Source: an uncultured Pseudodesulfovibrio sp.
GTDB taxonomy: Bacteria; Desulfobacterota; Desulfovibrionia; Desulfovibrionales; Desulfovibrionaceae
NCBI RefSeq assembly: GCF_963664965.1
Contig: NZ_OY761823.1
Location: forward strand, 1,064,001-1,128,000
DNA length: 64,000 nucleotides
Reading direction: 5' to 3'
Under the pieces are notes generated by a model. The model had not been told where the DNA came from and ran no database searches. It was given only the letters and a program-made list of their open reading frames with translations. This document shows positions 10,356 through 61,964 of the stretch, piece by piece (the first letter of the stretch is position 1; the number at the start of each line of letters is the position of its first letter). The position numbers and the translations under genes were made by a program.

Positions 10356-10426
10356 GCCTCCGGCGGCTCAAGGTCCATTGAGAAATGGTCCTTGAGAATC
10401 TCCAAAGCGTTTTGATGCGCTTCGCG
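10356..10426 (-). repeat. Modular palindromic repeat, copy b (class I, paired with c)
   Basis: On the minus strand it reads CGCGAAGCGC, a linker ending GGAGATTC, a 13-bp hairpin with one mismatch (10368-10397), then GCCGCCGGAGGC. The last box is 5 nt from the smpB start codon and provides its ribosome site. The distal end faces copy c. Confidence 0.82.
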
Positions 10427-10530
10427 AGATTGTACGAACGCGTGGATTAATGGTTTTTCTTATTGCCTTAACCTAAATAAAACGACCCCAACGTGCCAAC
10501 TTTCCAAGTCCCTCCGCTCACGCGCATGCG

Positions 10531-10637
10531 TATCCAAAAAGCTTTGGAGGGAAGAGGGGATGGGGGCTTGGGGGAAGGGGAGAGGGGAAGCCTTTCACGA
10601 AAGGTTCCCCTCTCCCCTTCCCCCAACCGCCGGAGGC
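10531..10637 (+). repeat. Modular palindromic repeat, copy c (polypurine arms, paired with b)
   Basis: CCAAAAAGCTTTGGAGG, then GAGGGGATGGGG, then a very long hairpin (10568-10626, arms of about 27 nt almost purely GGGGAAGGGGAGAGG on one strand), then CCGCCGGAGGC. The gene-proximal end is 9 nt from the ptsI stop. Together with copy b it fills the gap 10351-10646; no other feature is seen there. Confidence 0.82.
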
Positions 10638-10646
10638 ACATTCTTT

Positions 10647-12431
10647 TTACGAAGGGGCCTCGTCGTTTTCAAGCAGGGACGAGAAGAAGCTGACTTCTTC
10701 GGGGAAGTGCTTGAAGATATTATCCATCACCAGATTGTTGATGCGGCTGACCGTACGGCATTCGAGCACATCCTTGAGCAGTTTTCGGCAGTCGTGCATG
10801 TTGGTCTGCCGGATGATGCGCTTGATGCCGGGGATGGCCTGTGCCGTGAGTGAAATCGAGTCAATGCCCATGCCGAGCAGGATGGGGACGCAGAACGGAT
10901 CTGACGCCACTTCGCCGCACAGGGACACTTCTATGCCTGCCTGATGGGCTGCGTCAACCACCAGCTTGATGGCGCGCAGGGTCGCGGGGTGCAGCGGCTG
11001 GTACAGGTAGGACACATGATGATTGGTCCGGTCCACGCCGATGGAGTACTGGATGAGATCGTTGGTGCCGATGGAGAAAAAGTCCACTTCGTGCGCCAGA
11101 TACTCGGCGATCATCACGGCGGCAGGCAGCTCGATCATGATGCCCACAGGCATGTTCGGGTCGTAGTCGATGCCTTCGCGCCGGAGTTCCGCCTTGGCCT
11201 GTGCGAGCCACGCCTTTGCCTGTCGCACTTCCTTGACGCCCGAGATCATGGGGAACATCAGTGAAACGTTGCCGTAAGCCGAGGCGCGCAGGATGGCCCG
11301 AAGCTGCGTCTTGAACAGCTGCGGATTCTTGAGACAGAAGCGGATGGCGCGCAGGCCTAACGCCGGGTTGGTCTCGTTGAGCTCTCCAAATGAGGAGATG
11401 AATTTGTCCGCGCCGAGATCGAGCGTGCGGAAAACGACTTTTCGGGGGGCCATGATGGCTGCGAGGTCAACGTATTTTTCCGTCAGTTCATCTTCGGTCG
11501 GCAGCTCGGTGCGGTTCATGTACGCATATTCGGTGCGGTAGAGTCCCACGCCTTCGCCGCCGTTGTCGATGACCGAGGCGACTTCTTCGACCAATTCGAT
11601 ATTGGCGAGCACGGAGACCCGTGAACCGTCGAACGTCTCGGCGGGCAACTGGCAGTGCCGCCTGATTTTGCGCGTGTAGTCCTCGAAGAAGGCGGCGCGT
11701 TCGTTGTAGTCCTCAAGCTCTGTTTCGGTGGGATTGACCACGACTTTCCCGGACAGACCGTCCAGTATGACGAGGTCGCCGTCGCGTACGAAATCTTCAA
11801 GCTTGTCGGTTCCCACTAGGGCGGGGATGCCGAGGGACCGGGCCATGATGCCGGTGTGGGAGGTCTTGCCGCCGCGCACCGTGGCAAAACCCATGATCTT
11901 GTCCACCTGCAACTCGACGGTGTCCGCCGGGGTCAGGTCATGGGCCATGATGATGGCGCGGCCTGAGATGGAGGCCATGTCGGATTCGCGTCCGATGAGC
12001 TTGGCCTGCACCTTGTCCGCCACGACGCGTACGTCCTGCATGCGTTCGCGGATGTACGGATCGTCAATGGCACCGAAGGCGGCTTCCTGATCGGAAACGG
12101 CCTTTTCCAGTGCCCATGGAGCGTTCAGGCCGAGATTTTTGACGTATTCCTCGGCCACCCCGGCGAGCTTGGGGTCCTTGAGCATGAGGATGTGGGTGTC
12201 GATGAGCAGGCCGTAGTCCTTGAGGTCTGCGGGTACCCTTTCACGCGTGGCCGTGAGTTCGGACTCCACGGTGGTGAATGCGTCGTGCAGGCGTTTGATT
12301 TCGTCGGGCACCTGTGAAGCGGCGACCGTCTGCCGTTGCAGGTGCGCCTTGTGATTGCGGTTGACGAAGTAGGCCTTGCCGATGGCGATGCCCGTTGCAA
12401 CCGATATGCCCGAGAGAATCTTGTCTGCCAT
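10647..12431 (-). CDS. ptsI: PTS enzyme I, phosphoenolpyruvate-protein phosphotransferase
   Basis: Enzyme I takes phosphate from phosphoenolpyruvate on a histidine and passes it to HPr. The 594-residue protein has the normal length and order: an N-terminal HPr-binding domain, the phospho-His motif GGKTSHTGIMARS, and a PEP-binding barrel with GVGLYRTEY, IGTNDLIQY and the active-site Cys in CGEVASDP. It begins 2 nt after the ptsH stop, so the two are co-translated. No EIIA, EIIB or EIIC gene accompanies this set. Energy coupling or regulation rather than sugar uptake is therefore possible, unless the missing parts lie elsewhere. Confidence 0.97.
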   Translation of the reverse strand: MADKILSGISVATGIAIGKAYFVNRNHKAHLQRQTVAASQVPDEIKRLHDAFTTVESELTATRERVPADLKDYGLLIDTHILMLKDPKLAGVAEEYVKNLGLNAPWALEKAVSDQEAAFGAIDDPYIRERMQDVRVVADKVQAKLIGRESDMASISGRAIIMAHDLTPADTVELQVDKIMGFATVRGGKTSHTGIMARSLGIPALVGTDKLEDFVRDGDLVILDGLSGKVVVNPTETELEDYNERAAFFEDYTRKIRRHCQLPAETFDGSRVSVLANIELVEEVASVIDNGGEGVGLYRTEYAYMNRTELPTEDELTEKYVDLAAIMAPRKVVFRTLDLGADKFISSFGELNETNPALGLRAIRFCLKNPQLFKTQLRAILRASAYGNVSLMFPMISGVKEVRQAKAWLAQAKAELRREGIDYDPNMPVGIMIELPAAVMIAEYLAHEVDFFSIGTNDLIQYSIGVDRTNHHVSYLYQPLHPATLRAIKLVVDAAHQAGIEVSLCGEVASDPFCVPILLGMGIDSISLTAQAIPGIKRIIRQTNMHDCRKLLKDVLECRTVSRINNLVMDNIFKHFPEEVSFFSSLLENDEAPS

Positions 12432-12433
12432 GT

Positions 12434-12739
12434 CTATTCTGCGAATTTGTTTTTGAACAACGTGGTCAGGGAAGCCAGGGCGTCCGCCGCATCAGCCCCC
12501 TGCACCCGGATTTCCAGTACGTCCCCCGGCGCAGCGGCCAGAGTCAGCACGTCGAGGATGGACTTCGCGTCCACTTCCTGTTCTGCGTTCACGAGTTTTA
12601 TATCCGCCTCGAATCCCTGTGCGCGTTGAGCGACCAGGCCGGCGGGTCGGGCGTGCAGCCCGTGTTCATTGGCGACAACAACCTGCCCCGAGAGGACATC
12701 CTCTTCCTGCGAATTTGTTGCCTGATTGTCTTCCATCAT
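12434..12739 (-). CDS. ptsH: PTS phosphocarrier protein HPr
   Basis: This 101-residue HPr has a short acidic N-terminal extension (about 15 residues) before the canonical fold. The active histidine is His29 in EHGLHARPAG, and the regulatory-serine region is DAKSILDVL with Ser60, the position phosphorylated by HPr kinase in other bacteria. It sits directly upstream of ptsI and 49 nt downstream of the EIID gene. Two adjacent ATG codons (12739 and 12736) are both possible starts. Together with EIID it suggests a mannose-family phosphorelay of which only part is present here. Confidence 0.96.
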   Translation of the reverse strand: MMEDNQATNSQEEDVLSGQVVVANEHGLHARPAGLVAQRAQGFEADIKLVNAEQEVDAKSILDVLTLAAAPGDVLEIRVQGADAADALASLTTLFKNKFAE

Positions 12740-12788
12740 GATGATACCTGTAAGTTCCAGTCGTCTATATGTCTGATTGATGAAGAAA

Positions 12789-13577: not shown

Positions 13578-13596
13578 GATGATTCGTTTGTTCGGA

Positions 13597-15596: not shown

Positions 15597-15637
15597 ATTT
15601 CTGCACGGCATTATCAGCCTGTGCATGGAAGAAAATG

Positions 15638-15687: not shown

Positions 15688-15697
15688 GAAAGTCATT

Positions 15698-15784
15698 CGC
15701 CGAAGGCGTAAAAGGGAGTCCAGAGGGTATAGCCCTCTGGCCGCCGGAGGCGAAGTCACCCGACATCGCCGCGCAGCGGCATCA
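15698..15784 (+). repeat. Modular palindromic repeat, copy d (single, class II)
   Basis: CGCCGAAGGCG, linker GGGAGT, hairpin CCAGAGGG-TATAG-CCCTCTGG (15720-15740), CCGCCGGAGGCG, then the class II tail GAAGTCACCCGACA and a GCCGCGCAGCGGC hairpin. Its tail is 18 nt from the rsmI stop. Confidence 0.8.
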
Positions 15785-15802
15785 ATAACTCTTTTTTATC
15801 TC

Positions 15803-16630
15803 TTATCCCCGCAGGGCCGCGTATACTTCCTTGGCTGTCCATCCGGTAGCGCGTGCCGCCACCCGTCGGGCGATTTCCTTGGGCTTGCCGCCCTGTTCCC
15901 GCTCTTCGTCTGCCAGACGCAGGATGTCTTCTTCGCTGGTCGGGCCGGATTCACCTGCCGGACCGATGATGACCGTGAGTTCGCCGCGCAGCTCGCAGTC
16001 GAACTGGTCGAGGCTGCCCAGCGTGCCGCGCAGAAATTCCTCGTATTCCTTGGTCAGTTCGCGGGCCACGCAGAATTCGCGGTCGCCGAGCACTTCGCCT
16101 GCAATCTCAAGCGTTCCGGCAAGACGCGACTTGCGTTCAAAGAAGACCAGCGTGGCTCCGGTGTCGCGGTGGGTTGCAAAGAGTTTTTCGGTTTGGGACT
16201 TCCGCCGTGGGGTGAAGCCCAGAAAGGTATACGGCAGGGGCGGCAGGCCGGATGCGGACAGCGCGACCACCGGGGCGCTGGGACCGGGCACGGGAGAGAC
16301 GGCAAAGCCTTGTTCGCGGCAGGCGCGGACCAGTGTGAACCCCGGATCGGAAAGCAGGGGCGTCCCGGCATCGGAGATCAGGGCCACGGACAGGCCGTCT
16401 TCCAGAAATTCGAGCACCTTGGGCAGCCGCTTGTCTTCGTTGTGTTCAAAGAAGCTCATCAACCGACCGTGGCGCTCAAGCTCCAGTCGCTTGAACAGCA
16501 GTCCGGCCCGACGCGTGTCTTCCGCCAGAATCACATCTGCGTCCATCAGTATGTTCCGGGCGCGGGGCGACAGGTCGTCCGTATTGCCCAGCGGGGTCGC
16601 CACGACCCACAGTTTTCCGTCACTCGTCAT
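15803..16630 (-). CDS. rsmI: 16S rRNA (cytidine(1402)-2'-O)-methyltransferase
   Basis: RsmI 2'-O-methylates C1402 in the 16S rRNA decoding centre using SAM. The 275-residue protein has the tetrapyrrole-methylase-type fold with ATPLGNTDDLSPRA, the SAM-binding SDAGTPLLSDPG, PGPSAPVVALSASGLP and FLGFTPRRKSQ. The start overlaps the yraN stop in an ATGA arrangement, so the pair is co-translated. It is oriented away from cbiG-cobJ. Confidence 0.97.
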   Translation of the reverse strand: MTSDGKLWVVATPLGNTDDLSPRARNILMDADVILAEDTRRAGLLFKRLELERHGRLMSFFEHNEDKRLPKVLEFLEDGLSVALISDAGTPLLSDPGFTLVRACREQGFAVSPVPGPSAPVVALSASGLPPLPYTFLGFTPRRKSQTEKLFATHRDTGATLVFFERKSRLAGTLEIAGEVLGDREFCVARELTKEYEEFLRGTLGSLDQFDCELRGELTVIIGPAGESGPTSEEDILRLADEEREQGGKPKEIARRVAARATGWTAKEVYAALRG

Positions 16631-18922: not shown

Positions 18923-18929
18923 ATGTTGC

Positions 18930-29948: not shown

Positions 29949-30433
29949 TTCATTGCCTTTTTCTTGTACATGGCCTTTTTTAGTCGTCCCGCCTTGTCAG
30001 CGATGGTCACACCGTTCAGGTGGTCGATTTCGTGTTGCAAAATGATCGCGAGGAAGCCGTCGGTCTCGATGCAGACGTCCTTGCCTTCGCGGTCCATTGC
30101 ATTGACCTTGACCCGCTCAAAGCGCTTCACTTTGGCTGCGAATTCCGGGCAGCTCAGGCAGCCCTCGTCGGAATCGACTTCACCATCGCATTCCACGATC
30201 TCCGGGTTGATGAGCACGCGCAGGTCGCCCTTGACCTTGGGACCGGTCTGGTCCACGCAGATAAGACGAATGGATTTGCCGATCTGCGGCGCGGCCAGTC
30301 CGACCCCGTCGCCTTCGTACATCGTTTCGATCATGTTCTCGATAAGCTCTTCCAGCTCGGGAGTGATCTCGGCGATCGGTTCGGCATTTTTAGCCAGAAC
30401 CTCGTCCGGCCATGTGCATATTTCCAATTTCAT
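29936..30433 (-). CDS. def: Peptide deformylase
   Basis: Def removes the N-formyl group from nascent proteins. The three metalloenzyme motifs are intact: GVGLAAPQIG, EGCLSCPE (metal-ligand Cys) and QHEIDHLNG (two His ligands and catalytic Glu). At 165 residues it has normal length. The apparent Shine-Dalgarno GGAGG lies about 9 nt upstream of the ATG, within the GCCGCCGGAGGC end of a repeat copy. It overlaps fmt by 13 nt. Confidence 0.97.
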   Translation of the reverse strand: MKLEICTWPDEVLAKNAEPIAEITPELEELIENMIETMYEGDGVGLAAPQIGKSIRLICVDQTGPKVKGDLRVLINPEIVECDGEVDSDEGCLSCPEFAAKVKRFERVKVNAMDREGKDVCIETDGFLAIILQHEIDHLNGVTIADKAGRLKKAMYKKKAMKWKK

Positions 30434-30440: not shown

Positions 30441-30511
30441 GCCTCCGGCGGCTCAAGAACCCTTTGAAAAAGGTTCTTGAGAATCTCCTAAACTTTTTAT
30501 CGCGCCGCTGG
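30441..30511 (-). repeat. Modular palindromic repeat, copy e (class I, paired with f)
   Basis: On the minus strand: a GC-rich distal box, AAAAAGTTTAGGAGATTC, a hairpin with CTCAAGAACC arms (30452-30481), then GCCGCCGGAGGC 7 nt from the def start. Its distal end faces copy f across 156 nt that hold a small GCGAGCT palindrome near 30590 and no supported gene. Confidence 0.82.
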
Positions 30512-30667
30512 ACCTTTGTGCAAACGTATGAATTCAGGCATGCGGCGAAAACGGACTAGTAATATATCAATAAGTCTTAAAATTCAAAAAGCGAGCTCAT
30601 GAAGCTCGCACCCCTACGCCGCCATGGCGAGATATTGTTTTTTGCCCTTTGTCACTGCGGCGTAGAG

Positions 30668-30722
30668 CCAAAAAGTTTTGAAAGGGGTCCGGGGGAAACT
30701 TCGGGAAGAAGTTTCCCCCGGA
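30668..30722 (+). repeat. Modular palindromic repeat, copy f (diverged, paired with e)
   Basis: CCAAAAAGTTTTGAAAGGGG, then a perfect 14-bp hairpin TCCGGGGGAAACTT with its complement (30688-30722). The usual GCCGGAGGC box is missing; instead T-rich sequence runs into the aspS stop 10 nt away. It may also act as a terminator. Confidence 0.68.
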
Positions 30723-51066: not shown

Positions 51067-51140
51067 GCGTCTCCGACGGCCTAAGAACCTTTCGAGAAAG
51101 GTTCTTAGGGATCTCCAAAGCTTTTTGGTTCGCTTCGCGG
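51067..51140 (-). repeat. Modular palindromic repeat, copy g (class I, paired with h)
   Basis: On the minus strand: a CGCGAAGCG distal box, AAAAAGCTTTGGAGATC, hairpin CCTAAGAACCTTT-CTCG-AAAGGTTCTTAGG (51080-51109), and GCCGTCGGAGACGC 3 nt after the rimM stop. Its distal end faces copy h across 46 nt. Confidence 0.82.
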
Positions 51141-51186
51141 GTGTGTGCGAACGTGAGCAGGTGTGCTCCTTTATTTAAACAACTTT

Positions 51187-51284
51187 GCGCCGATAGGCGC
51201 AGAATGGGATTCTTAAGGGTATAGCCCTTAAGCCGCCGGAGGCGAAGTCACCTGACAATCGCGCCGTAGGCGCATCCCACCCTG
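51187..51284 (+). repeat. Modular palindromic repeat, copy h (class II, paired with g)
   Basis: GCGCCGATAGGCGC, linker AGAATGGGATT, hairpin CTTAAGGG-TATAG-CCCTTAAG (51212-51232), CCGCCGGAGGCG, tail AAGTCACCTGACAATCGC, GCGCCGTAGGCGC and ATCCCACCCTG. The tail end is 22 nt from the trmD start. ATGGGAT and ATCCCA at the two sides form an outer inverted repeat. Confidence 0.82.
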
Positions 51285-51306: not shown

Positions 51307-52602
51307 ATGAATTTCCATCTCGTTTCCATATTTCCGCACTACTTTGATTCTCCGCTTTCGTCGGGTCTCATGGGCAAGGCCGTGGACAACGGGCTGGTCA
51401 ATCTCGACTACGTGGACGTGCGCCATTTTGCCGGGGGCATTCACAAATCCGTGGACGACCGGCCATTCGGCGGCGGACCGGGCATGCTGCTCAAGCTCGA
51501 CCCTATGGTCAAGGCGCTCGACTCCATCGAGTCTCCGGGCCGCATCATCATGCTCTCGCCGCGTGGTAAACCGCTCTCACAGGCCCGTGTGCGCGAGTTG
51601 TCGCAGGAAGAGGACATCACCCTTATCTCGGGCCGGTATGAGGGCATAGACGAGCGCCTGCTTGATCTCTATCCCATTGAACTGGTCAGCGTGGGGGATT
51701 TCGTACTCAACGGCGGTGAGGCCGGTGCCGTCTGTCTCATGGAGGCTGTGGCGCGTCTGCTGCCCGAATTCATGGGGCATACCGATTCCGGCGAAGAGGA
51801 AAGCTTCTCCGCAGGGCTGCTCGAATATCCGCACTACACCCGCCCGGACGACTGGGACGGACACAAGGTGCCGGAGGTGCTGCGCGGCGGCGACCACGGC
51901 AAGATAGCTCAGTGGCGGCGTGAATGCTCGCTGGAGACCACCCTTGAGGATCGCCCCGACGTTTTGCCGGAAGCGAGCCTCACGGTTGAAGACATAGATT
52001 ATCTGCGGACCCTGTCGCGTACCCGGCTGGGCCGCAATCTGTATATCGCACTGGTTCATTATCCGGTGATGAACAAATTTGGGGAAAAAGTGGCTGTTTC
52101 CGTGACCAACCTCGACCTGCACGACATGTCGCGGGTGGCGCGGAGTTACGGTCTGGGGGGCTTTTATGCCACCACCCCGATAGAAGACCAGAAGGCGTTG
52201 GCTCATAAGCTGCTGACCCACTGGAAGGACGGCGCAGGCAGTGCCGCCAATCCGGATCGGGCCGAGGCGTTTTCCAAGGTCAAGGTTTTTGACGATATTG
52301 AGTCGGCAGTACTTGACATCGAGGCACAAACAGGGCAATGTCCCCGCCTCGCGGCCACGTCAGCACGGCTGGATCGTCGCAAGAAAGCAGAGCCTGCGCT
52401 CACCTATAAGGAAGTGCAAAGCTGGCTTGCCAACTCTCCGGTTTTATTGATTTTTGGAACTGGACACGGTTTGGCTGAAGAAGTCCTCTCCAAAACGGAG
52501 GGCATATTGCGCCCTGTCAGGTATTTGGATGACTACAACCATCTGTCGGTGCGAAGCGCGGTCGCAATCATTGTCGACCGGCTCATCGCGGATGAGTACT
52601 AA
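51307..52602 (+). CDS. trmD: tRNA (guanine(37)-N1)-methyltransferase fused to a second SPOUT-type domain
   Basis: Residues about 1-235 are a complete TrmD (FHLVSIFPHYFD, DDRPFGGGPGMLLK, LISGRYEGIDERLL, SVGDFVLNGGEAGA), which methylates G37 of tRNAs. Residues about 245-430 form an extra domain (NLYIALVHYPVMNKFGEKVA ... LLIFGTGHGLAEEVL) matching the SAM-dependent RNA methyltransferase family found fused or next to trmD in deltaproteobacteria. TrmD alone is about 240 residues. I start at ATG 51307 (MNFHLVSIF); in-frame ATG 51295 and TTG 51286 are alternatives with weak ribosome sites. Confidence 0.94.
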   Translation: MNFHLVSIFPHYFDSPLSSGLMGKAVDNGLVNLDYVDVRHFAGGIHKSVDDRPFGGGPGMLLKLDPMVKALDSIESPGRIIMLSPRGKPLSQARVRELSQEEDITLISGRYEGIDERLLDLYPIELVSVGDFVLNGGEAGAVCLMEAVARLLPEFMGHTDSGEEESFSAGLLEYPHYTRPDDWDGHKVPEVLRGGDHGKIAQWRRECSLETTLEDRPDVLPEASLTVEDIDYLRTLSRTRLGRNLYIALVHYPVMNKFGEKVAVSVTNLDLHDMSRVARSYGLGGFYATTPIEDQKALAHKLLTHWKDGAGSAANPDRAEAFSKVKVFDDIESAVLDIEAQTGQCPRLAATSARLDRRKKAEPALTYKEVQSWLANSPVLLIFGTGHGLAEEVLSKTEGILRPVRYLDDYNHLSVRSAVAIIVDRLIADEY

Positions 52603-52969: not shown

Positions 52970-52980
52970 TTTTTCGGATA

Positions 52981-53246: not shown

Positions 53247-53888
53247 ATGAATCAGGGAAATTTAATAGCAAGCGCGCATTTTTCGCCGACGGAAATTGCC
53301 GGAGTGGACGAAGCTGGGCGTGGTTGTCTGGCTGGTCCGGTGGTTGCCGGGGCGTGCATTCTGCCTGAAAAATATGACCTTCCGGGGCTGAATGACTCCA
53401 AGCAATTGACCGCGCAGAAGCGGGAAGTGCTCTATGATTTGATTCGTGAGCAGGCCATAACATGGTCGATCGGCGTTTCCTGGGCACCGGAAATCGACAA
53501 AATTAATATCCTTGAAGCCACGTATCAGGCCATGGGGCGGGCCGTCCGAACGCTCAAATCGCAACCCAAATTTCTCCAGATTGACGGTAACAAGCTCATT
53601 CCGAATTACGCTCTCAAGCTCGATATCCCGCAGGAATACGTCATCAAGGGTGACGGAAAAATCCCCGCCATCTCTGCCGCGTCCATCATGGCAAAGACAT
53701 TCCGGGACCGGCTCATGCTCAAAATCGCAACTCAATTTCCCGGGTACGGCATCTCCAAACACATGGGCTACGGCACCAAAGCGCACATGGAAGCCATCCA
53801 GAAAATGGGCCCGTGCCGACATCATCGAATGACTTTCCGTGGAGTAAAATCCGAAGAACCAAAGCAGAAACAAGCGACTTTGTTCTAG
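53247..53888 (+). CDS. rnhB: Ribonuclease HII
   Basis: RnhB removes ribonucleotides from RNA-DNA hybrids. Acidic catalytic motifs are present: AGVDEAGRGCLAGPVVAGA, LNDSKQLTAQKRE and the Asp in IKGDGKIPAISAASI. Length (213) is normal. It is separated from rplS by a terminator, so it may have its own promoter in the 100 nt upstream, although it belongs to the same conserved neighbourhood. A repeat pair follows the stop by 5 nt. Confidence 0.97.
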   Translation: MNQGNLIASAHFSPTEIAGVDEAGRGCLAGPVVAGACILPEKYDLPGLNDSKQLTAQKREVLYDLIREQAITWSIGVSWAPEIDKINILEATYQAMGRAVRTLKSQPKFLQIDGNKLIPNYALKLDIPQEYVIKGDGKIPAISAASIMAKTFRDRLMLKIATQFPGYGISKHMGYGTKAHMEAIQKMGPCRHHRMTFRGVKSEEPKQKQATLF

Positions 53889-53893
53889 TAAAA

Positions 53894-53990
53894 GGCAGGA
53901 TGGGAAGCCGCTTTGCGGCGATGTCAGGTGACTTCGCCTCCGGCGGCTTAAGGGCTATACCCTTAAGAATCCCGTTCGCGCCTTCGGCGA
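53894..53990 (-). repeat. Modular palindromic repeat, copy i (class II, paired with j)
   Basis: On the minus strand: CGCCGAAGGCGC, a GGGATT linker, hairpin CTTAAGGG-TATAG-CCCTTAAG (53947-53967), GCCGCCGGAGGCGAAGTCACC, a GCCGC/GCGGC hairpin, and TCCCATCCTGCC 5 nt from the rnhB stop. Confidence 0.83.
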
Positions 53991-54002
53991 AAATAAGTGA
54001 AT

Positions 54003-54044
54003 AAAAAAAGTCCCGACAGGCTCAGCCTGTCGGGACTTTTTTTA
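54003..54044. terminator. Symmetrical bidirectional terminator inside the repeat pair i-j
   Basis: A near-perfect palindrome: A7-GTCCCGACAGGCT and AGCCTGTCGGGAC-T7 around a central C. It sits midway between convergent rnhB and the acyl-CoA synthetase gene. Confidence 0.92.
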
Positions 54045-54060
54045 TTCACTATATTTATTT

Positions 54061-54157
54061 CGCCGAAGGCGAGTCTGGGATCTCAAAGGGTTTTACCCTT
54101 TGACCGTCGGAGACGAAATCACCCGACAATCGCGCCGCAGGCGCATCCCATCCTGCC
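54061..54157 (+). repeat. Modular palindromic repeat, copy j (class II, paired with i)
   Basis: CGCCGAAGGCG, linker TCTGGGATC, hairpin TCAAAGGG-TTTTA-CCCTTTGA (54083-54103), CCGTCGGAGACG, tail AAATCACCCGACAATCGC, GCGCCGCAGGCGC and ATCCCATCCTGCC. It ends 3 nt from the stop of the acyl-CoA synthetase gene. Confidence 0.83.
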
Positions 54158-54160
54158 TTT

Positions 54161-55798
54161 CTATTTGGCGTATTTTTTCAAATCGGCTTCGCGTATTTCT
54201 TTTCGTTTGATCTTGCCGCTGATGGTCTTGGGCAGATCGTCGACGTACTCGATTATACGCGGGTACTTGTAGGGCGCTGTAAGCTCGCGCACGAAGGTCT
54301 GGAGCTGCTTTGTCAGCTCGTCGTTGCCTTCGTAGCCGGGAGCGAGCACGATGGTCGCCTTGACGATCTGGCCGCGGACGTCGTCGGGCACGCCGGTGAC
54401 AGCGGCTTCGACAACGGAATCGTGCGCCACGAGTGCGGATTCGACCTCAAAGGGGCCGATGCGGTAGCCGGAACTCTTGATGAGATCGTCTGTGCGGCCC
54501 ATGAACCAGAAGTAGCCGTCTTCGTCGGCCCATGCCTTGTCGCCGGTGTGATACCAGCCGTCGAACTTGACGGACGCGGTCTTTTCCGGCTCATCCATGT
54601 AGCTGTCGAACAGGCCGAGCACGGGCTTGTCGATGCGGATGCAGATTTCGCCTTCCTCGCCCTGCGGGACGGGCTGCCCGGTCTCGTCCATGAGCTGAAT
54701 GTCCCAACCGGGGACGGGCTTGCCGATGGAGCCGGGTTTGGGCGTCATGAACTTGAACGTAGCGATCTGCAAGGTGGTTTCAGTCTGTCCGTATCCTTCG
54801 TAGAGCGGGATGTTGAAGGCCTTTTCCCAGGCGTGGAAGACCGAGTCGTTGAGCAGTTCGCCCGCCGTGGTGCAGTGACGCAGCGCGGACAGGTCGTACT
54901 GTGACAGGTCTTCGCGGACGAGGAAACGGTATACCGTGGGCGGCGCGCAGAAGGTGGTGATCTTGTTTTCGTCCATGATCTGGAGCAGATGCGCCGGCTC
55001 GAATTTGCCCCGGAAATCCCAGACAAATACGGTGGCCCCGGCCATCCACTGGCCGTAGAACTTGCCCCATACGGATTTGGCCCAGCCGGTTTCCGACAGG
55101 GTCAGGTGAATGTCGCCGTCTTCCAGATCATGCCAGTGCGCGGCGGTGGAGAAGTGGCTGCACGGGTAGGTAAAGGAGTGCAGCACCATCTTGGGCAAGC
55201 CCGTGGTTCCGCTGGAAAAGAAGATGACCATCGGGTCATCGCCGCCCGGAGAATCCGCAGTGCGCGGACAGTCGGTGGCGCCTTCTGACAGCAGGGTTTC
55301 GTAGTCGTGCCAGCCTTCATTCAGTTCGCCGTCGATCTGCACGAGCAGGTTCAGGTTCGGACAATCTCCCTTGGCTTCGTCTACGCGTTCGCAGATCGAG
55401 TCTTCGCAGATGATGGCGGTGACGTTGGCATAGTTGACGCGCTGGGAGATGTCTTTTTTGGTCAGCAGCGACGGGGACGGGATCGGCAGTGCGCCGATGC
55501 GGTGCAGGGCGAGCATGACGGTCCAGTATTCCATGCGGCGATACAGCACCAGCATGACCCTGTCGCCCTTTTTCACGCCCTGTTTCATGAGGGAATTGGC
55601 GAGCCTGCTTGATGTCTCCTGAAAGAAACCGAAGTTGAATTCGCGTCGTTCTCCGGCGTCGGAGACGTGGATGAGCGCGGTTTTTTCCGGCTCCATTTTA
55701 TCCAGGACGTCGTAGGAAAAGTTGAAATTCTCAGGGGCTTCCAGTTTATATCGCGCGCAGAAATCTGCGTAGTCCTCGTAAGTTTCCTTGGCAAACAT
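54161..55798 (-). CDS. Acyl-CoA synthetase, AMP-forming (MACS-like)
   Basis: The 545-residue enzyme has ANL-superfamily motifs. These are the P-loop FFSSGTTGLPKMVLHS, GYGQTETT, the hinge region WYHTGDKAWADEDGYFWFMG ... RTDDLIKSSGYRIGPFEVE, and the catalytic lysine in KTISGKIKRKEIR. Sequence style is closest to medium-chain or aryl acyl-CoA synthetases; the acid substrate is not determined. I chose ATG 55798 (MFAKETYEDY) with GGAG 10 nt upstream. A gene for an XRE-cupin regulator lies 97 nt upstream on the same strand. Confidence 0.93.
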   Translation of the reverse strand: MFAKETYEDYADFCARYKLEAPENFNFSYDVLDKMEPEKTALIHVSDAGERREFNFGFFQETSSRLANSLMKQGVKKGDRVMLVLYRRMEYWTVMLALHRIGALPIPSPSLLTKKDISQRVNYANVTAIICEDSICERVDEAKGDCPNLNLLVQIDGELNEGWHDYETLLSEGATDCPRTADSPGGDDPMVIFFSSGTTGLPKMVLHSFTYPCSHFSTAAHWHDLEDGDIHLTLSETGWAKSVWGKFYGQWMAGATVFVWDFRGKFEPAHLLQIMDENKITTFCAPPTVYRFLVREDLSQYDLSALRHCTTAGELLNDSVFHAWEKAFNIPLYEGYGQTETTLQIATFKFMTPKPGSIGKPVPGWDIQLMDETGQPVPQGEEGEICIRIDKPVLGLFDSYMDEPEKTASVKFDGWYHTGDKAWADEDGYFWFMGRTDDLIKSSGYRIGPFEVESALVAHDSVVEAAVTGVPDDVRGQIVKATIVLAPGYEGNDELTKQLQTFVRELTAPYKYPRIIEYVDDLPKTISGKIKRKEIREADLKKYAK

Positions 55799-55895
55799 TG
55801 TATGTTTTCTCCGTGATTCAGTGTCAGATTTTTTCGTTTTCTTCTTCAATCGCTCGACACTTTGGTCCGGGCGGGCCGAAATCTACCGGCCTACC

Positions 55896-56444
55896 CTACA
55901 GAATCACGTCTATGAAATTCACGTCTTTGCCGTCCAGACCTCGCAGGGCATGCGGCGTTTCCGAGTTGAAATAAATGGAATCGCCCGGTTCGAGAATGAG
56001 CGGTTCGCCGTTCATGCGAAGTTCCAGACGTCCCTCAAGCACGTAAATGAACTCCTGCCCACGGTGGGAGGTTTCAGTCATTTCTTCGCCGTTTTTGGGG
56101 GGAACGCGGATTAGAAACGGCTCCATGTCGCGGCCGGCGAACTTGTAGCCGAGGCTTTTGTAATCGTAGTCCTTGCGACGGTCAACGGAAAAGCCTTCGC
56201 CTTTGCGTACCAGCGCGTACGACTTCAGGTGCGGTTCGCGCCCGGAAATCAGCGTGTTCAGATCAACCCTGCACAGCCGGGAAACATCCAGCATGTAGCC
56301 GACCGGAATTTCGACGGTCCCGGACTCGTACTCCGCGACCTTTTCTTCCGGCAGACTCAGCAGGTCGGCCATCTCCTTCACGGTCCAGCCGATGCCTTCC
56401 CGCAGCCCCACCAATCGCGGGGCAATGTCTTTGTACTGTTCCAT
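55896..56444 (-). CDS. XRE-cupin transcriptional regulator (module 1)
   Basis: An N-terminal helix-turn-helix (about 8-65, WTVKEMADLLSLPEEKVAEY) is joined to a C-terminal cupin barrel (about 110-180, RGQEFIYVLEGRLELRMNG, LEPGDSIYFNSETPHAL). Such regulators often sense a small acid or acyl-CoA through the cupin. It lies just upstream of an acyl-CoA synthetase gene, so it most likely controls that gene. It is paralogous to the regulator at 58260-58820, which has the same arrangement. Confidence 0.9.
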   Translation of the reverse strand: MEQYKDIAPRLVGLREGIGWTVKEMADLLSLPEEKVAEYESGTVEIPVGYMLDVSRLCRVDLNTLISGREPHLKSYALVRKGEGFSVDRRKDYDYKSLGYKFAGRDMEPFLIRVPPKNGEEMTETSHRGQEFIYVLEGRLELRMNGEPLILEPGDSIYFNSETPHALRGLDGKDVNFIDVIL

Positions 56445-56557
56445 CTCTCTCTCCTTTGCCTGCCGAAGATTCCGGTCTCCTTTACGTGAGGAGGCCCAAA
56501 CATCTTCAAAACCGTTTGCCGCGCCGCCTGTGGCGGTTTGCGGCGTCGTTTATTCGT

Positions 56558-56594
56558 GATGGAGGCGGGGAGCAACATTTCCCCGCCCGCCATC
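56558..56594 (-). terminator. Stem-loop after the second acyl-CoA synthetase
   Basis: GATGGAGGCGGGGA pairs imperfectly with TCCCCGCCCGCCATC around a 7-nt loop. No T-run follows on the minus strand, so its role as a terminator is uncertain. It lies in the 171-nt gap between the two regulator/synthetase modules. Confidence 0.5.
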
Positions 56595-56615
56595 TTTCGA
56601 TAACTCTTTCAACCC

Positions 56616-58256
56616 CTATGCGTCAGGCCACAGTTCGTGGGCGTGATCGCGGAGTTTGTACTTCTGGATTTTGCCGGACGCGGTCATGGGGTATTCGTCC
56701 ATGAACGTGACGAATTTCGGAATCTTGTACTTTGCGATTCTGCCGCGGCAGTAGTCGACGACGTCTTCGGGCAGCAGGTCCGCATCTTCCTTGAGGATGA
56801 TGAACGCGCCGACCTGTTCGCCGAATTTCTCGCTGGGCACGCCTGCCACCTGTACGTCACGGATGCCGTCCATGGTGTAGAGGAATTCCTCCAATTCGCG
56901 GGGATAGATGTTCTCGCCGCCGCGAATGATCATGTCCTTGAGGCGTCCGGTGATGGACAGGTAGCCATCGTCGTCGAGCACGCCGAGATCGCCGGAGTGC
57001 AGCCAGCCGTCCTTGTCGATGGCGGCGGCAGTGGCTTTCTCGTTGTTGTAGTAGCCCTTCATGACGTTGTAGCCGCGGCAGCAGACTTCACCCTGCGTGC
57101 CTGCCGGACAGGTCTCGCCGGTTTCGGGATCGGTGATCTTGATCTCGATTTCGGGCATGGCCGGACCAACGGTCTCGGTCATGTGTTCGATGGTGTCGCC
57201 GATGGTGGTCTGGGACATGACCGGGCTGGCCTCGGTCAGGCCGTAGCAGATGGTGATCTCGGTCATATTCATCTTGTCCATGACGCGCTTCATGACTTCC
57301 ACGGGACAGGGCGACCCGGCCATGATGCCGGTACGCAGGTGGGAGTAATCGAACTTGTCGAACATGGCGTGATCGAGCAGGGCGATGAACATGGTAGGCA
57401 CGCCGTAGAGGGCGGTACACTTTTCCTGATCGATGGAAGCCATGACGTCGAGCGGCACGAAATCCTCGAGGATGACCATGGTCACGCCGTGGTTGACCGC
57501 TGCCATTACGCCGAGCACACAACCGAAGCAGTGGAACAGCGGCACGGTGAGTGCGAGGCGGTCGCCGGCATGGAAGTTCTGGTTCTTGCCGATCCAGTAG
57601 CCGTTGTTCGCGACGTTGTAGTGGGTGAGCTGCACACCTTTGGGAAAACCTGTGGTTCCCGAGGTGTACTGCATGTTGACCACGTCGTGCGGATCGAGTC
57701 CGGCCTGACGTTCCTCGTATTCCTCGTCCGTGACCATGGCTGCCATGGCCTGAAGCTCGGGAATGGAATACATGCCGCGATGCTTTTCATGGCCGAGGTA
57801 GAAGACGCGCTTCAGGTGCGGGAATTTTTCGGTCCGCAACTGGCCGCGTTCCTGAGTCCGGAGTTCCGGAATCTGTTCGTAGGTGGTGGAAAGGTAGTCG
57901 TGATCCCGGTAGTGCCCGATGATGAACAGGTTCTCTGTCTCGGAGTGTTCGAGGAGATACTGGAATTCATGGGAACGGTAATGGGTGTTCACGGTGAGCA
58001 GGATGGCACCGATCTTGGCTGTGGCAAACTGGAGTGCCACCCAGTAGGGCACGTTGTTGGCCCAGATGGCGACCTTTTCACCTTTCTGTACGCCCAGCCC
58101 CATCAGCCCCTTGGCAATGGTGTCCACGAGTTCGCCGAATTCCCTGTAGGTCTGGCGAAAATCGCGGTCCACATAGACCACGGCTTCCTGATCGGGCCAT
58201 TTCTCGACGGCCTCATCCAGCAGTTGTCCGAGAGTGAGTTCGCGAAGTGCTGCCAT
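56616..58256 (-). CDS. Acyl-CoA synthetase, AMP-forming (fatty-acyl-CoA synthase type)
   Basis: A second ANL ligase, 546 residues, from a different subgroup than its neighbour. It has P-loop [30 protein letters not shown], hinge [20 protein letters not shown] with [17 protein letters not shown], and lysine motif [12 protein letters not shown]. It resembles fatty-acyl-CoA synthetases. It starts 3 nt after the XRE-cupin gene, so the two are co-translated. Substrate length is not readable from the sequence. Confidence 0.94.
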
Positions 58257-58259
58257 GAT

Positions 58260-58820
58260 CTACTCCGGGAAGTAGAGGACAGCGTAGATTTCGGCTTTCT
58301 CGTCCCCGGCGCAGGCCACGTTGTGCGGCACCACGGAGTTGAAATAGATGGAATCGCCCGGTTCGAGCACGGACTCTTCCTTGCCGTAAATGACGCGAAG
58401 CTTGCCGGAATGGACCACGATGAACTCTTCTCCTTCATGGGAGGAGAGGTGGCCGTCCTTGGCGGATTCCGGGAGCAGTTCAATGAAGAACGGTTCCATG
58501 TGGCGATCGGTTTTTCCCTTGCCGAGGGAGTGGAATTTGAGGCCTGCTTCCTTGCCGTCGGGATGCATGATGATCTCTTCTTCCCGGTCGGCGAGCCGTG
58601 TGATCAGCGGATCGCTGGATACCTGGTCATCCAGGAAGGTGCCGAGCCGGACGCCGAGGGCGCGGGCCAGCTTCACCAGCGGTTGCAGCGAAGGATACAT
58701 GTCGTCTTCTTCGACTGCGTGAATGAAATTTTCAGTGAGGCCGGTACGGGCCGCGAGGTCCTCAATGGTCAGGTTCTGTTTTTCTCGGTAGGATTGGATC
58801 CTTTTGCCGATCTTGTCCAT
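58260..58820 (-). CDS. XRE-cupin transcriptional regulator (module 2)
   Basis: 186 residues: helix-turn-helix (KQNLTIEDLAARTGLTENFI) and cupin (GEEFIVVHSGKLRVIYGKE, LEPGDSIYFNSVVPHNVA). The LEPGDSIYFNS stretch is identical in the module 1 regulator, which supports duplication. AAGGAGACACC precedes the ATG. It is the first gene of the minus-strand run and probably regulates itself and the synthetase. Its upstream gap (58821-59216) is shared with the TPR gene. Confidence 0.91.
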   Translation of the reverse strand: MDKIGKRIQSYREKQNLTIEDLAARTGLTENFIHAVEEDDMYPSLQPLVKLARALGVRLGTFLDDQVSSDPLITRLADREEEIIMHPDGKEAGLKFHSLGKGKTDRHMEPFFIELLPESAKDGHLSSHEGEEFIVVHSGKLRVIYGKEESVLEPGDSIYFNSVVPHNVACAGDEKAEIYAVLYFPE

Positions 58821-59216
58821 CAGTGGTGTCTCCTTGAAACATCAGCATTAAACTACAATATATGAAATCTTCTCGGATATGTCTGTCCGGAAGACAATAA
58901 TTCGTCGTCTCTGCGTGTACCCGAAACGGTTCGGAATGTCACCTCGGGCGTAATGAACGCAGCCGGTCATTTTTTTTGTGGGTATAATTGTTTCTGTCGT
59001 GACAGGCCGTTGAGGTGCTTTTGAGAAAAATGGCTGTACGCAGAACTCGCCAGTGATAAAAAATATCATGGTTCACATGTATGAAAAATGCGACAGAACG
59101 CACCCGGCGCAACGCGGTTTTCGTCACCCGATCGCAACAGTGTCCGGTTGCAAACCGTGCTTTGGCGGTGTACCTTTCTCGTTCGCGAGTTCAATTGGAA
59201 ATTTTAAGGATACGAC
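58821..59216. other. 396-nt divergent intergenic region
   Basis: No supported gene. It should contain promoters for the XRE-cupin unit and for the TPR-fetAB unit. A TATAAT occurs at 58983-58988 on the plus strand, but no matching -35 was found. TGTCTGTCCGGAAGACA (near 58880) is a short imperfect palindrome that could be an operator. Confidence 0.5.
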
Positions 59217-60017
59217 GTGAATTTGGAAGAGAACAAGGTCCGTCAGGACAAAGAAATATCGGCTGCGGGAACCCTCAAGGACATTGAAAGAGAAAAGATT
59301 TCGGGTGTATTTTCTACCCAGAATGTCAACAAGGTCGGCACCGGCACGACCATGCGTAAGGCCATTCAGAAGGCCTACTGGTTTGCCGAGCAGGTCGACG
59401 GTGAAGGGGCACCTGTCGTTCAGGTGCAGCCCTTGAATGACAACAATGTGCCGTCGGGTCCCAAGGAAACGGTGGTGCTTGGGGAGTTCCTTGAAAATTT
59501 TGCACCTGAGCTGGAATACTATCAGGAAAAGGTTTTCCCGCAGATCAAGGAAATGAACGAGACCATCACCCGTGCCGAACGACAGCGTGAACAGGGAGCG
59601 TATTACTCGGCCCAGTTTGATTTCGAGGCCGCGCTTGATTTTGATGAAAGTAACGTGCGTGCCAATTTCGGGCTTGGTCTGACCTACATGGAGCGCGGCG
59701 AGACTAGCAAGGCGGACGACATCTTTCAGCGCGTGGTCAAGCTTGATGCCGCTTTCGAACCGGAGCACAAGCACCTGTTCAACGAGTTCGGCATGAATCT
59801 GCGTAAGTCGGGACTTCTCGATCAGGCCGTTGATTATTACACCCGCGCCCTCGAGATCACGGTCAATGACGAGAACCTGTATTACAACATTGCCCGTGCC
59901 TATTTCGAGCGTGGCGACAAGCAGGCGTGTCTGGACAACCTGAACAAGGCGCTGGAACTGAATCCTCATCTTGAAGAAGCGGTTCAGTTTCTCAACTATT
60001 TGAAAAAACAGGGGTAG
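59217..60017 (+). CDS. Tetratricopeptide-repeat protein, 266 aa
   Basis: The start is GTG with AAGGA 6 nt upstream. Residues 1-105 form a charged N-terminal region with RKAIQKAYWFAEQ. TPR units then run from about residue 125 to the end (EQGAYYSAQFDFEAALDFDE, NFGLGLTYMERGETSKADDI, YYTRALEITVNDENLYYNIA, LDNLNKALELNPHLEEAV). There is no signal peptide. It precedes the fetAB-type ABC genes by 5 nt and is probably co-transcribed. TPRs imply protein-protein contacts; the partner is unknown. Confidence 0.85.
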   Translation: MNLEENKVRQDKEISAAGTLKDIEREKISGVFSTQNVNKVGTGTTMRKAIQKAYWFAEQVDGEGAPVVQVQPLNDNNVPSGPKETVVLGEFLENFAPELEYYQEKVFPQIKEMNETITRAERQREQGAYYSAQFDFEAALDFDESNVRANFGLGLTYMERGETSKADDIFQRVVKLDAAFEPEHKHLFNEFGMNLRKSGLLDQAVDYYTRALEITVNDENLYYNIARAYFERGDKQACLDNLNKALELNPHLEEAVQFLNYLKKQG

Positions 60018-60022
60018 CCCGT

Positions 60023-60676
60023 ATGTGTCTGGTCCTCGAAGATGTCACTTTCGCCTATCCCGGCGGGGCTGTCATCCTTGAGGGTGCTTCACTGACCATT
60101 ACGCAGGGCGGATACTATCTCGTGCGCGGGCCGTCCGGTTCCGGCAAGTCCACATTGCTGCGGCTTCTCTGCCGTCTGGAGGAGCCTCAATCCGGCAGGA
60201 TCGTTTATCAGGAAACGCCTGTCAGTGAAATGGAGCCTGCCCGGTTGCGCCGTACCGTGGCATATGTTCAGCAGATGCCCACGCTCTTGAAAGCATCGGT
60301 GCGCGACAATCTCCTGCTTCCACTCCAATTCAAGGCGAACAGCGGCCTTGAGCCGCCGGATGACGGTACGCTGAACCGGATGCTCGGGTCGTTTCTGCTT
60401 GACGGCGTGACGCTCGACGCCATGGCGGATTCCCTGTCCGTGGGGCAAGCGCAGCGAGTCTGTCTCATTCGCAGTCTGTTACTCAGGCCCGAAGTGTTGC
60501 TCATGGACGAGCCGACTGCCTCCCTTGATGCCAAGAGCGCGCAGGTGGTGCTGGACAAGGCCGCCGAACTGAGCCGGGACGGCATGACCGTGGTCATGAT
60601 ATCCCATTCCGAAACCACTCCCGAAGGCGTGACGGACCTCATCCGTATCAATGGCCGCAAGCTGGAGTTCGCATGA
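60023..60676 (+). CDS. fetA: ABC transporter ATP-binding protein, FetA/YbbL type
   Basis: The 217-residue ATPase has Walker A GPSGSGKSTLLRLL, Q-loop VQQMPTLL, signature LSVGQAQRVCL, Walker B VLLMDEPTASLD and the switch His in MISHSE. It overlaps the UPF0014 permease gene by 4 nt. In E. coli this pair (FetAB) is linked to iron export and oxidative stress resistance; the same role here is inferred from family and gene order. Confidence 0.88.
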   Translation: MCLVLEDVTFAYPGGAVILEGASLTITQGGYYLVRGPSGSGKSTLLRLLCRLEEPQSGRIVYQETPVSEMEPARLRRTVAYVQQMPTLLKASVRDNLLLPLQFKANSGLEPPDDGTLNRMLGSFLLDGVTLDAMADSLSVGQAQRVCLIRSLLLRPEVLLMDEPTASLDAKSAQVVLDKAAELSRDGMTVVMISHSETTPEGVTDLIRINGRKLEFA

Positions 60677-61461
60677 GTGTCACGCCTGCCATCATCGAAA
60701 TATCCCCGTGGCAGCTTTTGCTGTGTCTCGGTTTCGTACTGCTCGCGGGCGGTACGTCCATCTATCACCGACTCGGTCTCGGGCGCGATCTGCTTGTCGG
60801 TACCATCCGTACTTTCGCGCAGCTTTTTCTCATGGGATACGTGCTCAAGTTCGTGTTCGACGTGCAGTTGAGTTGGCTTGTCCTGCTTATGTTCACGGTC
60901 ATGATCGGGGCGGCTGTTCACATCATCAAGGGGCGTGTCAGCGAAAAATCCGTGCCCTTTCTCATGCCCACGTTCATTTCCATGCTCCTGACCTACACCT
61001 TGGTCACTTATGTGGTCACCGCCGTGATCGTGGGAGCGAAACCGTGGTGGACGCCGCAGTATTTCATCCCGCTTGCCGGAATGATCGTCGGCAATTCCAT
61101 GACCGCCATTTCCATCTCCCTTGAGCGGCTGTTCTCGGATTTGAAGAACCGTCGGGCCGAAGTGGAAATGCGGCTCGCCCTCGGTGCGGATTACCGGGAA
61201 GCGTCACAGGATATTCTGCGGGATGCCGTGAAAGCAGGCATGATTCCGTCCATCAATTCTCTCATGGCTGTGGGACTTGTCTCCCTGCCCGGCATGATGA
61301 CCGGACAGATACTCTCCGGTACCGACCCGCTCATCGCTATCCGTTACCAGATCGTCGTCATGCTCATGATCGTGGCCGGGACCTCGCTCGGGTCACTGCT
61401 CGTCACCGGACTCGTCCGTCGCAGGTGCTTTTCCGCGGGGCAGCAGCTTATCGTTCGGTGA
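60673..61461 (+). CDS. fetB: ABC transporter permease, FetB/YbbM (UPF0014) type
   Basis: The 262-residue membrane protein has about seven helices and family blocks TSIYHRLGLGRDLLVGTIRT, LAGMIVGNSMTAISISLERL and GLVSLPGMMTGQILSGTDP. It overlaps fetA by 4 nt (ATGA). Together with fetA it would form a two-subunit exporter, possibly for iron. The stop is followed by a long repeat-filled gap. Confidence 0.9.
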   Translation: MSVTPAIIEISPWQLLLCLGFVLLAGGTSIYHRLGLGRDLLVGTIRTFAQLFLMGYVLKFVFDVQLSWLVLLMFTVMIGAAVHIIKGRVSEKSVPFLMPTFISMLLTYTLVTYVVTAVIVGAKPWWTPQYFIPLAGMIVGNSMTAISISLERLFSDLKNRRAEVEMRLALGADYREASQDILRDAVKAGMIPSINSLMAVGLVSLPGMMTGQILSGTDPLIAIRYQIVVMLMIVAGTSLGSLLVTGLVRRRCFSAGQQLIVR

Positions 61462-61499
61462 GGTTGGGGAGATGCTTCCGGCGGTCGCTCGCCGCGAGG

Positions 61500-61574
61500 G
61501 CGTCTCCGACGGCTTAAGAACCCTTTGTAAAGGGTTCTTAAGAATCTCCTAAACTTTTTGGTGCGCCTTCGGCG
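61500..61574 (-). repeat. Modular palindromic repeat, copy k (class I, paired with l)
   Basis: On the minus strand: CGCCGAAGGCGCACC, AAAAAGTTTAGGAGATTC, a 30-bp hairpin with CTTAAGAACCCTTT arms and a 2-nt spacer (61513-61542), GCCGTCGGAGACGC. The proximal end lies 38 nt after the fetB stop. Confidence 0.83.
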
Positions 61575-61620
61575 GGTGCGTTGGGTGAGGGGGGTGGTGT
61601 GTGGGGCCGGGGGAATGGCG

Positions 61621-61686
61621 TTCGGAGAGAATCGCGCCGGACATCTTCGGCGCGCGATCAAGCTGTCCGGCGCGATTCTCTCCGAA
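61621..61686. repeat. Perfect 23-bp inverted repeat with 20-nt loop
   Basis: TTCGGAGAGAATCGCGCCGG plus ACA (61621-61643) is exactly complementary to 61664-61686. The loop is TCTTCGGCGCGCGATCAAGC. No T-run follows. It lies between repeat copies k and l. A second, weaker inverted repeat, TATTGGTT/AACCAATA (61778-61805), lies downstream. No gene is supported in 61462-61969. Confidence 0.85.
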
Positions 61687-61856
61687 CAGTGCCCACGCCG
61701 CGTGTGTCTTACGGAAATAGTTCGAAAAAGCGTCCTTGCGGCGTTTCTTACATTAGGAAAGTCGGTTTTGTTTTTTCTATTGGTTCAGCATGAACGTAAC
61801 CAATAAGAAAGAAGGCACTCCCTTGTCTCAATTTCACCCAACGCGCGCTTAGCGCA

Positions 61857-61964
61857 TACAAAAAATTTAGGAAAGGAGAGGGGATGGGGATCCAAGGGGA
61901 AGGGGAGAGGAAAACCCTTTACAAAGGGTTTTCCTCTCCCCTTCCCCTTGGCCGCCGGAGGCGC
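61857..61964 (+). repeat. Modular palindromic repeat, copy l (polypurine arms, paired with k)
   Basis: AAAAAATTTAGGAAAGG, GAGAGGGGATGGGGAT, then perfect 29-bp arms separated by only AC (61892-61951; one arm is CCAAGGGGAAGGGGAGAGG followed by AAAACCCTTT), then CCGCCGGAGGCGC. It ends 5 nt from the glycosyltransferase stop. Confidence 0.85.

Follow-up and report, generated by a model that had tools for sequence, protein, structure and literature searches.

A 64,000-nucleotide window of an uncultured Pseudodesulfovibrio genome (bases 1,064,001-1,128,000 of contig C1; genome 3.87 Mb) contains copies of a modular palindromic repeat, which in our view is probably a family of small modular mobile elements, non-autonomous and present throughout the genus, akin to miniature inverted-repeat transposable elements (MITEs) and bacterial interspersed mosaic elements (BIMEs). 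The repeat is dispersed over the genome, its close neighbors follow a head-to-head rule, its outer ends lie at gene ends, its stems covary, two junctions that it fills in this genome are empty in sister species, and at one orthologous place its hairpin differs between species. No description of this repeat family was found in the titles and abstract openings of the open-access papers that literature searches listed; we regard the family as new and, by the tests made, as distinct from repetitive extragenic palindromes (REPs) and their inverted doublets (REPINs).

Arm anatomy and copies in the window

Each arm ends outward in a box, GCCGCCGGAGGC, which is itself a mini-hairpin with a C-GGA-G triloop. 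Arms were surveyed in the window and in 60 fetched stretches around boxes of the same genome, scanned for six box forms; decayed copies such as a and j (listed below) escape the scan because the boxes were sought in these six forms only. The three arm variants that the earlier note had described are real, and recur under simple pattern labels that leave about 24-25 copies unclassified. Type A consists of the frame CAAAAAGYTT, a stem of the CTTAAGAACCC kind that is mostly 13 bp long, and the box. Type C has the frame of type A in 13 of 18 copies, followed by a polypurine/polypyrimidine stem of up to 31 bp and the box; the two types have frame and box in common and differ in the hairpin. Type B runs from a CGCCGAAGGCG mini-hairpin through a GGGAT-like linker and an 8-9-bp stem to the box, often continuing beyond it into a TCACCCGACA-like tail (17/31 by pattern) and a further mini-hairpin. 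Within 130 nt, the frame motif AAAAGYT is found in 32/33 A, 13/18 C, 12/25 unclassified, and 0/31 B copies, against a background of 576 in 20,000 random 130-mers. The inward-facing end of the CGCCGAAGGCG type, which had been ascribed to every pair, is typical of A (28/33) and B arms (23/31) and does not extend to the polypurine type C (1/18). Further palindromes (CAAATCCGCAGGACAGCGGATTTG and similar) are nested in the hairpin loops of some arms (loci L016, L025, L037, and L061; elements at 504351, 510492, 789676, 1489568, and 3583274).

The stems change on both sides. Among 33 A arms (24 distinct), 90.0% of the cells are paired and 38 changes are double-sided; the corresponding values for 31 B arms (17 distinct) are 97.9% and 29, each reached in 0/500 shuffles, a margin that related sequences without structure can also attain, with slid controls far lower. 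Two of the five covariation measures did not clearly rise above shuffles: further pair types (473 and 164 of 500) and, for B arms, the number of pairs with double changes (51/500). The box stem contributes a C-G to T-A double change. The predicted structure is kept while the sequence changes in A and B stems.

Small GC hairpins on the outward strand carry GNA triloops in 124 of 186 cases (47 of them GGA, the loop of the box) and TNC triloops in 11, compared with 34 GNA and 38 TNC loops of 632 in a gene control. A reading of the loops as CsrA-type GGA sites was considered; after the GGA of the box, GAA is the triloop seen most often. In DNA, loops of the C-GNA-G kind have unusually high stability.

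The copies in the window, with SmpB assigned by Pfam, are as follows.

3897..3987, plus strand: copy a, an unpaired type A arm; its variant box ACCGTCGGAGAC (3972-3983) adjoins the stop of the gene at 4002-5261 (minus)
10356..10440, minus strand: copy b, a type A arm; its box (10356-10367) stands 5 nt from the smpB ATG at 10348-10350 (minus), with GGAGG in Shine-Dalgarno position
10528..10637, plus strand: copy c, type C (polypurine); box 10626-10637 with 1 mismatch, 9 nt from the stop of a ptsI-like gene at 10647-12431 (minus)
15696..15790, plus strand: copy d, an unpaired type B arm whose box (15740-15751) is 51 nt away from the stop of the gene at 15803-16630 (minus)
30441..30510, minus strand: copy e, a type A arm; its box (30441-30452) stands 7 nt from the def ATG at 30431-30433 (minus)
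30659..30722, plus strand: copy f, which has no box: a hairpin, with a AAAAAGTTTT-type frame, next to the stop of aspS
51069..51133, minus strand: copy g, type A; box variant GCCGTCGGAGAC at 51069-51080, 5 nt past the rimM stop
51185..51284, plus strand: copy h, a tailed type B arm whose box (51232-51243) lies upstream of trmD; apparently inserted as a pair with g
53894..53992, minus strand: copy i, type B; box 53936-53947, 47 nt past the stop of the RNase HII gene
54000..54046, no strand: bidirectional palindrome like an intrinsic terminator, at the center of i-j
54060..54157, plus strand: copy j, type B; box variant ACCGTCGGAGAC at 54103-54114, beside the stop of an AMP-binding enzyme gene at 54161-55798 (minus)
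61502..61577, minus strand: copy k, type A; box variant GCCGTCGGAGAC at 61502-61513, 40 nt past a UPF0014 gene
61620..61687, no strand: 28-bp inverted repeat within the core of the long k-l pair; its sequence partly recurs in other long pairs
61835..61962, plus strand: copy l, a type C arm whose box (61951-61962) is separated by 7 nt from the stop of a glycosyltransferase-like gene at 61970-63208 (minus)

These copies and their coordinates agree with the earlier note, which had also described five gap-filling head-to-head pairs. Four of them (b-c, g-h, i-j, and k-l) are bounded by boxes, b and c forming a 282-bp box-to-box unit. The fifth, e-f, is not, because f is without a box both here and in 8/8 orthologous gaps. 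Four reversed box forms were sought in those gaps and none was present in the 8 sister genomes, so the absence is not the simple loss that had been supposed; a hairpin after the aspS stop can be seen by eye in at least 7 of the 8. Rfam (gathering score) and tRNA scans of the window gave 0 matches.

Dispersal, pairing, and position at gene ends

The exact box occurs 88 times in its own genome (42 on the plus and 46 on the minus strand; reversed-pattern control, 0), and GCCGCCGGAGGCG with at most two mismatches has 18 matches in the window versus 5.4 expected, a number reached in 0/100 shuffles. We extended the search to 60 genomes, 36 of the genus (own included) and 24 of the order's other families. 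The exact box is present in 36/36 genus genomes at 4 to 157 copies each (control 0-9), and the other 24 hold 0-11 (control 0-4). The repeat is real and genus-wide. Among 20 box places read by eye outside the genus, in five genomes of the order, one is element-like and the others are coding-like. At the former (L221, on contig C2 of G047), the box is preceded by a GC-rich hairpin resembling these elements, and the family may therefore extend outside the genus.

In the surveyed stretches, the six forms give 111 boxes, of which 4 fall within predicted genes. Along C1, an arc of about 2.02-3.26 Mb holds only one of the 88 exact boxes (at 2881272). With 69 merged sites, a span that long with one site arose in 0/2,000 random placements, in a simulation that uses the longest span of each random set and tests an arc noticed beforehand. 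The GC skew of the fetched stretches switches to positive at about 0.6 Mb and back to negative somewhere within 2.0-2.9 Mb, so that the box-poor arc encloses the inferred terminus. Similar poor arcs are seen in the listed box positions of G003 and G034. No strand bias by replichore is visible.

Boxes less than 900 bp apart were taken as close neighbors (less than 1,100 bp in G024 and G034). In the surveyed stretches, 36 such neighbors are head-to-head, 2 have the same orientation, and 0 are tail-to-tail; the exact boxes alone give 19/19 head-to-head genome-wide. Boxes are thus neither rare nor randomly oriented, the two outcomes that would have spoken against the earlier note. The i-j pair is not among the 36, since the j box (ACCGTCGGAGAC, 54103) is a further variant. 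The 36 pairs are 165 to 540 bp long, with one of 834, and their G+C content is 55.3% versus 56.5% for window and stretches, so that they are not AT-rich. They end as a MITE with terminal inverted repeats does, with a box at both ends, and 36/36 opposite-strand neighbors are head-to-head. Between the arms, the core motif ACGCC(G/A)CGTG recurs in 16 of the 17 pairs of 397-540 bp, and GAGAGAATC, part of the 28-bp inverted repeat of k-l, in 6 of them. The arrangement is mosaic and extragenic, and no alternating array was seen in the own stretches, only the 36 doublets and the 2 same-orientation neighbors. Pairing is not universal across the genus: G024 (33 exact boxes) and G034 (37) have only 2 head-to-head neighbors each. 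In G002, four boxes of the same orientation stand 27 bp apart (C16:12411-12503), and nothing comparable exists in the own genome.

Each copy turns its outer box toward the nearest gene. Of the 31 B copies, 28 face a stop, and for 21 of these the distance to it is 39-51 nt; a start or stop is no more than 20 nt away in 15/18 C and 15/33 A copies, and A arms face stops (19) and starts (14). Fifteen boxes are at most 15 nt from a predicted start; for 13 the distance is 4-9 nt, which places GGAGG in Shine-Dalgarno position; these gene distances come from a custom gene finder that gives a bonus to ribosome-binding-like sequence, which makes the box-to-start distances partly circular, and two of the 13 close starts are TTG. 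The two starts checked against sister sequences, those of smpB (copy b) and def (copy e), are both confirmed. The repeat apparently sometimes supplies the translation-start signal of the next gene.

The gaps that hold the 36 pairs are convergent in 16 cases, tandem in 19, and divergent in 1. Element-free gaps longer than 100 bp (n = 75) comprise 8 convergent, 45 tandem, and 22 divergent, against which convergent gaps are enriched (P 1e-4) and divergent gaps depleted (P 8e-4). The convergent excess also holds against all element-free gaps (19 convergent, 156 tandem, 27 divergent; P 2e-6).

Inward from the box by 45-150 nt, 17/31 B, 1/33 A, 0/18 C, and 3/25 unclassified copies have a terminator-like hairpin. 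In i-j, the terminator scan scores strongly only at the center between the two B arms; in g-h, two 5-6-pair stems (one at the center, one at the inner end of h) score weakly. A hairpin and T run seen by eye on the inner side of copy d went unflagged. A canonical terminator role was rejected for A and C arms, as those of k-l and b-c show no hairpin with an immediate T run. The same gene for a LysE-type translocator is flanked on both sides by outward-pointing boxes in the own genome and in G024 (L039 1295-1909; L139 1627-2238).

Filled, old, and rearranged junctions

The earlier note had proposed looking for empty sites in sister species, and these exist for two pairs. At the b-c site, the ptsI-like gene and smpB are neighbors in 8/8 sister genomes, with 3-21 nt from stop to ATG and no element. 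At the g-h site, 25 of 29 sister trmD loci were readable with the motif, and 25/25 have no box form within 330 nt upstream of trmD; rimM stop and trmD start overlap in 20, are separated by a short gap in 3, and enclose other DNA in 2. The pairs b-c and g-h look like clean additions to these junctions, and a pair can apparently insert as a unit into gene junctions, at least at these two. At loci L065 and L071, the rimM-trmD junction of two sister species holds other, unrelated insertions. The trmD gene of the window (51307-52602) is fused to a second RNA methyltransferase domain, PF09936, dependent on S-adenosylmethionine (SAM). At many non-orthologous places, element-like sequence is up to 95% identical, while identity between the compared genes is about 68-86%.

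The e-f site is old. The aspS-def neighborhood is kept in 8/8 sisters, and the arm immediately upstream of the def ATG, classified by eye, is of type A in the own genome, G021, and G028, of type C in G001, G025, G032, and G034, decayed in G030, and absent in G011. Four of these sisters (G021, G028, G032, and G034) have an exact box at this place; that of G001 differs by one base, and those of G025 and G030 are not among the sought forms. Different hairpin types, A or C as judged by eye, thus occupy one orthologous place. The middle of e-f contains a block conserved across species that looks promoter-like.

In 8/8 sisters, the genes on either side of i-j are not adjacent, nor are those on either side of k-l; both pairs lie at synteny breakpoints. 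Specifically, the breaks fall in the gaps 53888-54161 and 61461-61970, and the segment between them (54161-61461) is intact in all 8. An exact box stands beside the ortholog of the RNase HII gene in 1 of 8 sisters (G032), of the AMP-binding gene in 1 (G032), of the UPF0014 gene in 0, and of the glycosyltransferase gene in 2 (G032, G001); the end of the last gene carries a variant box in G024 and G034.

Origin of the family and relation to known repeats

We favor the reading of the family as mobile. The inserting unit would be the box-to-box pair of facing palindromic arms, each running outward from an inner mini-hairpin or border through a swappable main hairpin to the outer box. A trans-acting enzyme may recognize the folded ends, possibly in single-stranded DNA, to which the GNA loops point, and insert the unit. 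Insertions between stop and start codons would survive, and those before a start codon would be tolerable within operons because the end carries GGAGG and brings its own ribosome-binding site. After insertion, the gene-side arm would tend to persist as the middle is exchanged, and arms would swap hairpins, probably via recombination between copies with common borders. More tentatively, the family could be a "gene-junction" mobile element, a self-contained intergenic region with a Shine-Dalgarno tip and a fixed-border frame, whose hairpins are exchanged with palindromy kept and which is moved by a yet-unrecognized enzyme that reads GNA loops in single-stranded DNA.

Several observations weigh against mobility. 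The depletion of divergent gaps is not significant against all element-free gaps (P 0.09). The loop polarity is without computed energy support, since, under standard DNA folding parameters, the two strands of each of three B arms came out nearly equal in energy, with no strand difference. Paired arms are no more alike than single ones, contrary to what REPIN mobility predicts; in fixed windows, mean pairwise identity is 0.725 paired versus 0.796 single for A arms (nested copies may depress the paired value) and 0.767 versus 0.783 for B arms. The arm kept at def in most species would also fit a selected regulatory part. When the 28 G024 regions holding all its 33 exact boxes were compared with G034 regions covering 36/37, 23 had a counterpart and 5 did not, and a fresh insertion between very close genomes was looked for and none was seen; movement would on these grounds be old or slow.

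The searches made also turned up no mobilizing enzyme, parent element, or target duplication. A search of the own genome for Y1_Tnp, the type of the REP-associated tyrosine transposase (RAYT), gave 0 matches. Open reading frames of at least 60 aa in five widely spaced box intervals (L006, L039, L054, L139, L174) include no transposase; against Pfam, the five main frames are LysE in two cases, radical SAM, ALAD, and one unmatched, and L054 lacks any frame of that length. An autonomous copy between widely spaced boxes is thereby rejected for these intervals, and no parent insertion sequence (IS) sharing the ends emerged from them, in a search that did not extend to every IS end of the genome. 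At the borders of the 36 pairs, direct repeats do not exceed those of shuffled pairings in length. Phage records (k-l as query) and plasmid records (g-h as query) contain no copies at E 1e-5. The earlier note's likening to BIMEs or MITEs therefore stands for inverted ends, dispersal, two apparently clean pair insertions, and modularity, and falls short on RAYT, target duplication, and transposase.

The strongest rival, which we nevertheless judge unlikely, holds that the arms are host regulatory hairpins of 5'- and 3'-untranslated regions (mRNA stabilizers, translational insulators ahead of the start codon, or spacers between stop and terminator), selected and repeatedly gained by gene conversion rather than mobile. 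The tight placement of the 21/28 stop-facing B copies, the terminator-like hairpins inside 17/31 B boxes compared with few elsewhere, the box 4-9 nt before 13 predicted starts, the retention of the def site in most species, and the stem covariation would all suit it. However, b-c and g-h look like additions to junctions where every readable sister lacks an element, the number of exact boxes ranges from 4 to 157 within one genus, and no single RNA role fits, because A arms face stops and starts alike.

Less probable still is that the pairs are rearrangement scars, left where breaks joined two gene ends that each carried a single arm. The non-neighboring genes around i-j and k-l in 8/8 sisters agree with this, as do two of the 23 regions shared by G024 and G034, in which the sequences diverge from the inner end of the retained arm onward. 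But the neighbors of b-c and of e-f are adjacent in 8/8 sisters and rimM-trmD in 23/25 readable loci, and 16/17 pairs of 397-540 bp have a core motif in common between their arms. At another place (L067 790-943 and L068 532-941), a B arm is present in G035 and G034, and unrelated DNA of about 410 bp in G024, which is 98.9% identical to G035 around this difference.

That the pairs are REP/REPIN-type doublets moved by a RAYT (Y1) transposase we consider very improbable and reject: although they too are inverted, palindromic, and intergenic doublets, Y1_Tnp is absent here and its presence in 17/36 genus genomes is unrelated to box number (medians 39 with and 42 without, P 0.49), no GTAG tag has a fixed position in A or B arms, CGTC is fixed solely in the GTC/GAC box variant (A 8/33, B 5/31), and doublets are no more conserved than singles.

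The available text of a report on Desulfovibrio desulfuricans ND132 describes "intractable" sequencing gaps that failed to amplify, treats them as obstacles to sequencing that have primary and secondary structure in common, and describes no repeat family (PMC3409199). Of the six published gaps, one has length 0 and five can be compared: gap 1 (17 nt) and gap 2 (29 nt) are 100% identical to arms of the family, gap 5 matches the type C arm at the G032 def site at 95% over 63 nt, gap 6 matches a type C arm over 17/36 nt, and gap 4 (14 nt) has no match. Shuffled versions of gaps 2, 4, 5, and 6 (the last one base off) gave no match. The family probably accounts for gaps that hindered the earlier finishing of at least one genome of the genus. 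Moreover, the end of a dispersed repeat can here serve as a ribosome-binding site as well, and this would account for the element settling inside gene clusters such as rimM-trmD. The family offers a natural series of empty and filled orthologous junctions for testing the function of intergenic hairpins, and the A/C differences at the def start codon add further material of this kind.

Among known systems, the BOX elements of Streptococcus pneumoniae, as presented in the available text of PMC3049150, are likewise modular palindromic intergenic repeats of variable length with an excess in convergent gaps and no transposase of their own. Terminal inverted repeats and target duplications are reported for them (PMC3049150), whereas no target duplication was found for the present family, which sets facing arms with exchangeable hairpins against gene ends. 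REPINs and BIMEs with RAYT, as far as the accessible portions of PMC3116915 and PMC3733652 describe them, are also intergenic doublets of inverted palindromes; the present family differs in having no RAYT, no fixed GTAG, doublets that are not more conserved, and stems of up to 31 bp. MITEs and Correia elements, in the same partial account as BOX (PMC3049150), have in common with it inverted ends, strong folding, dispersal, and the absence of their own transposase. Unlike them, the Pseudodesulfovibrio repeat shows no target duplication and no recognized parent IS, and it is not AT-rich.

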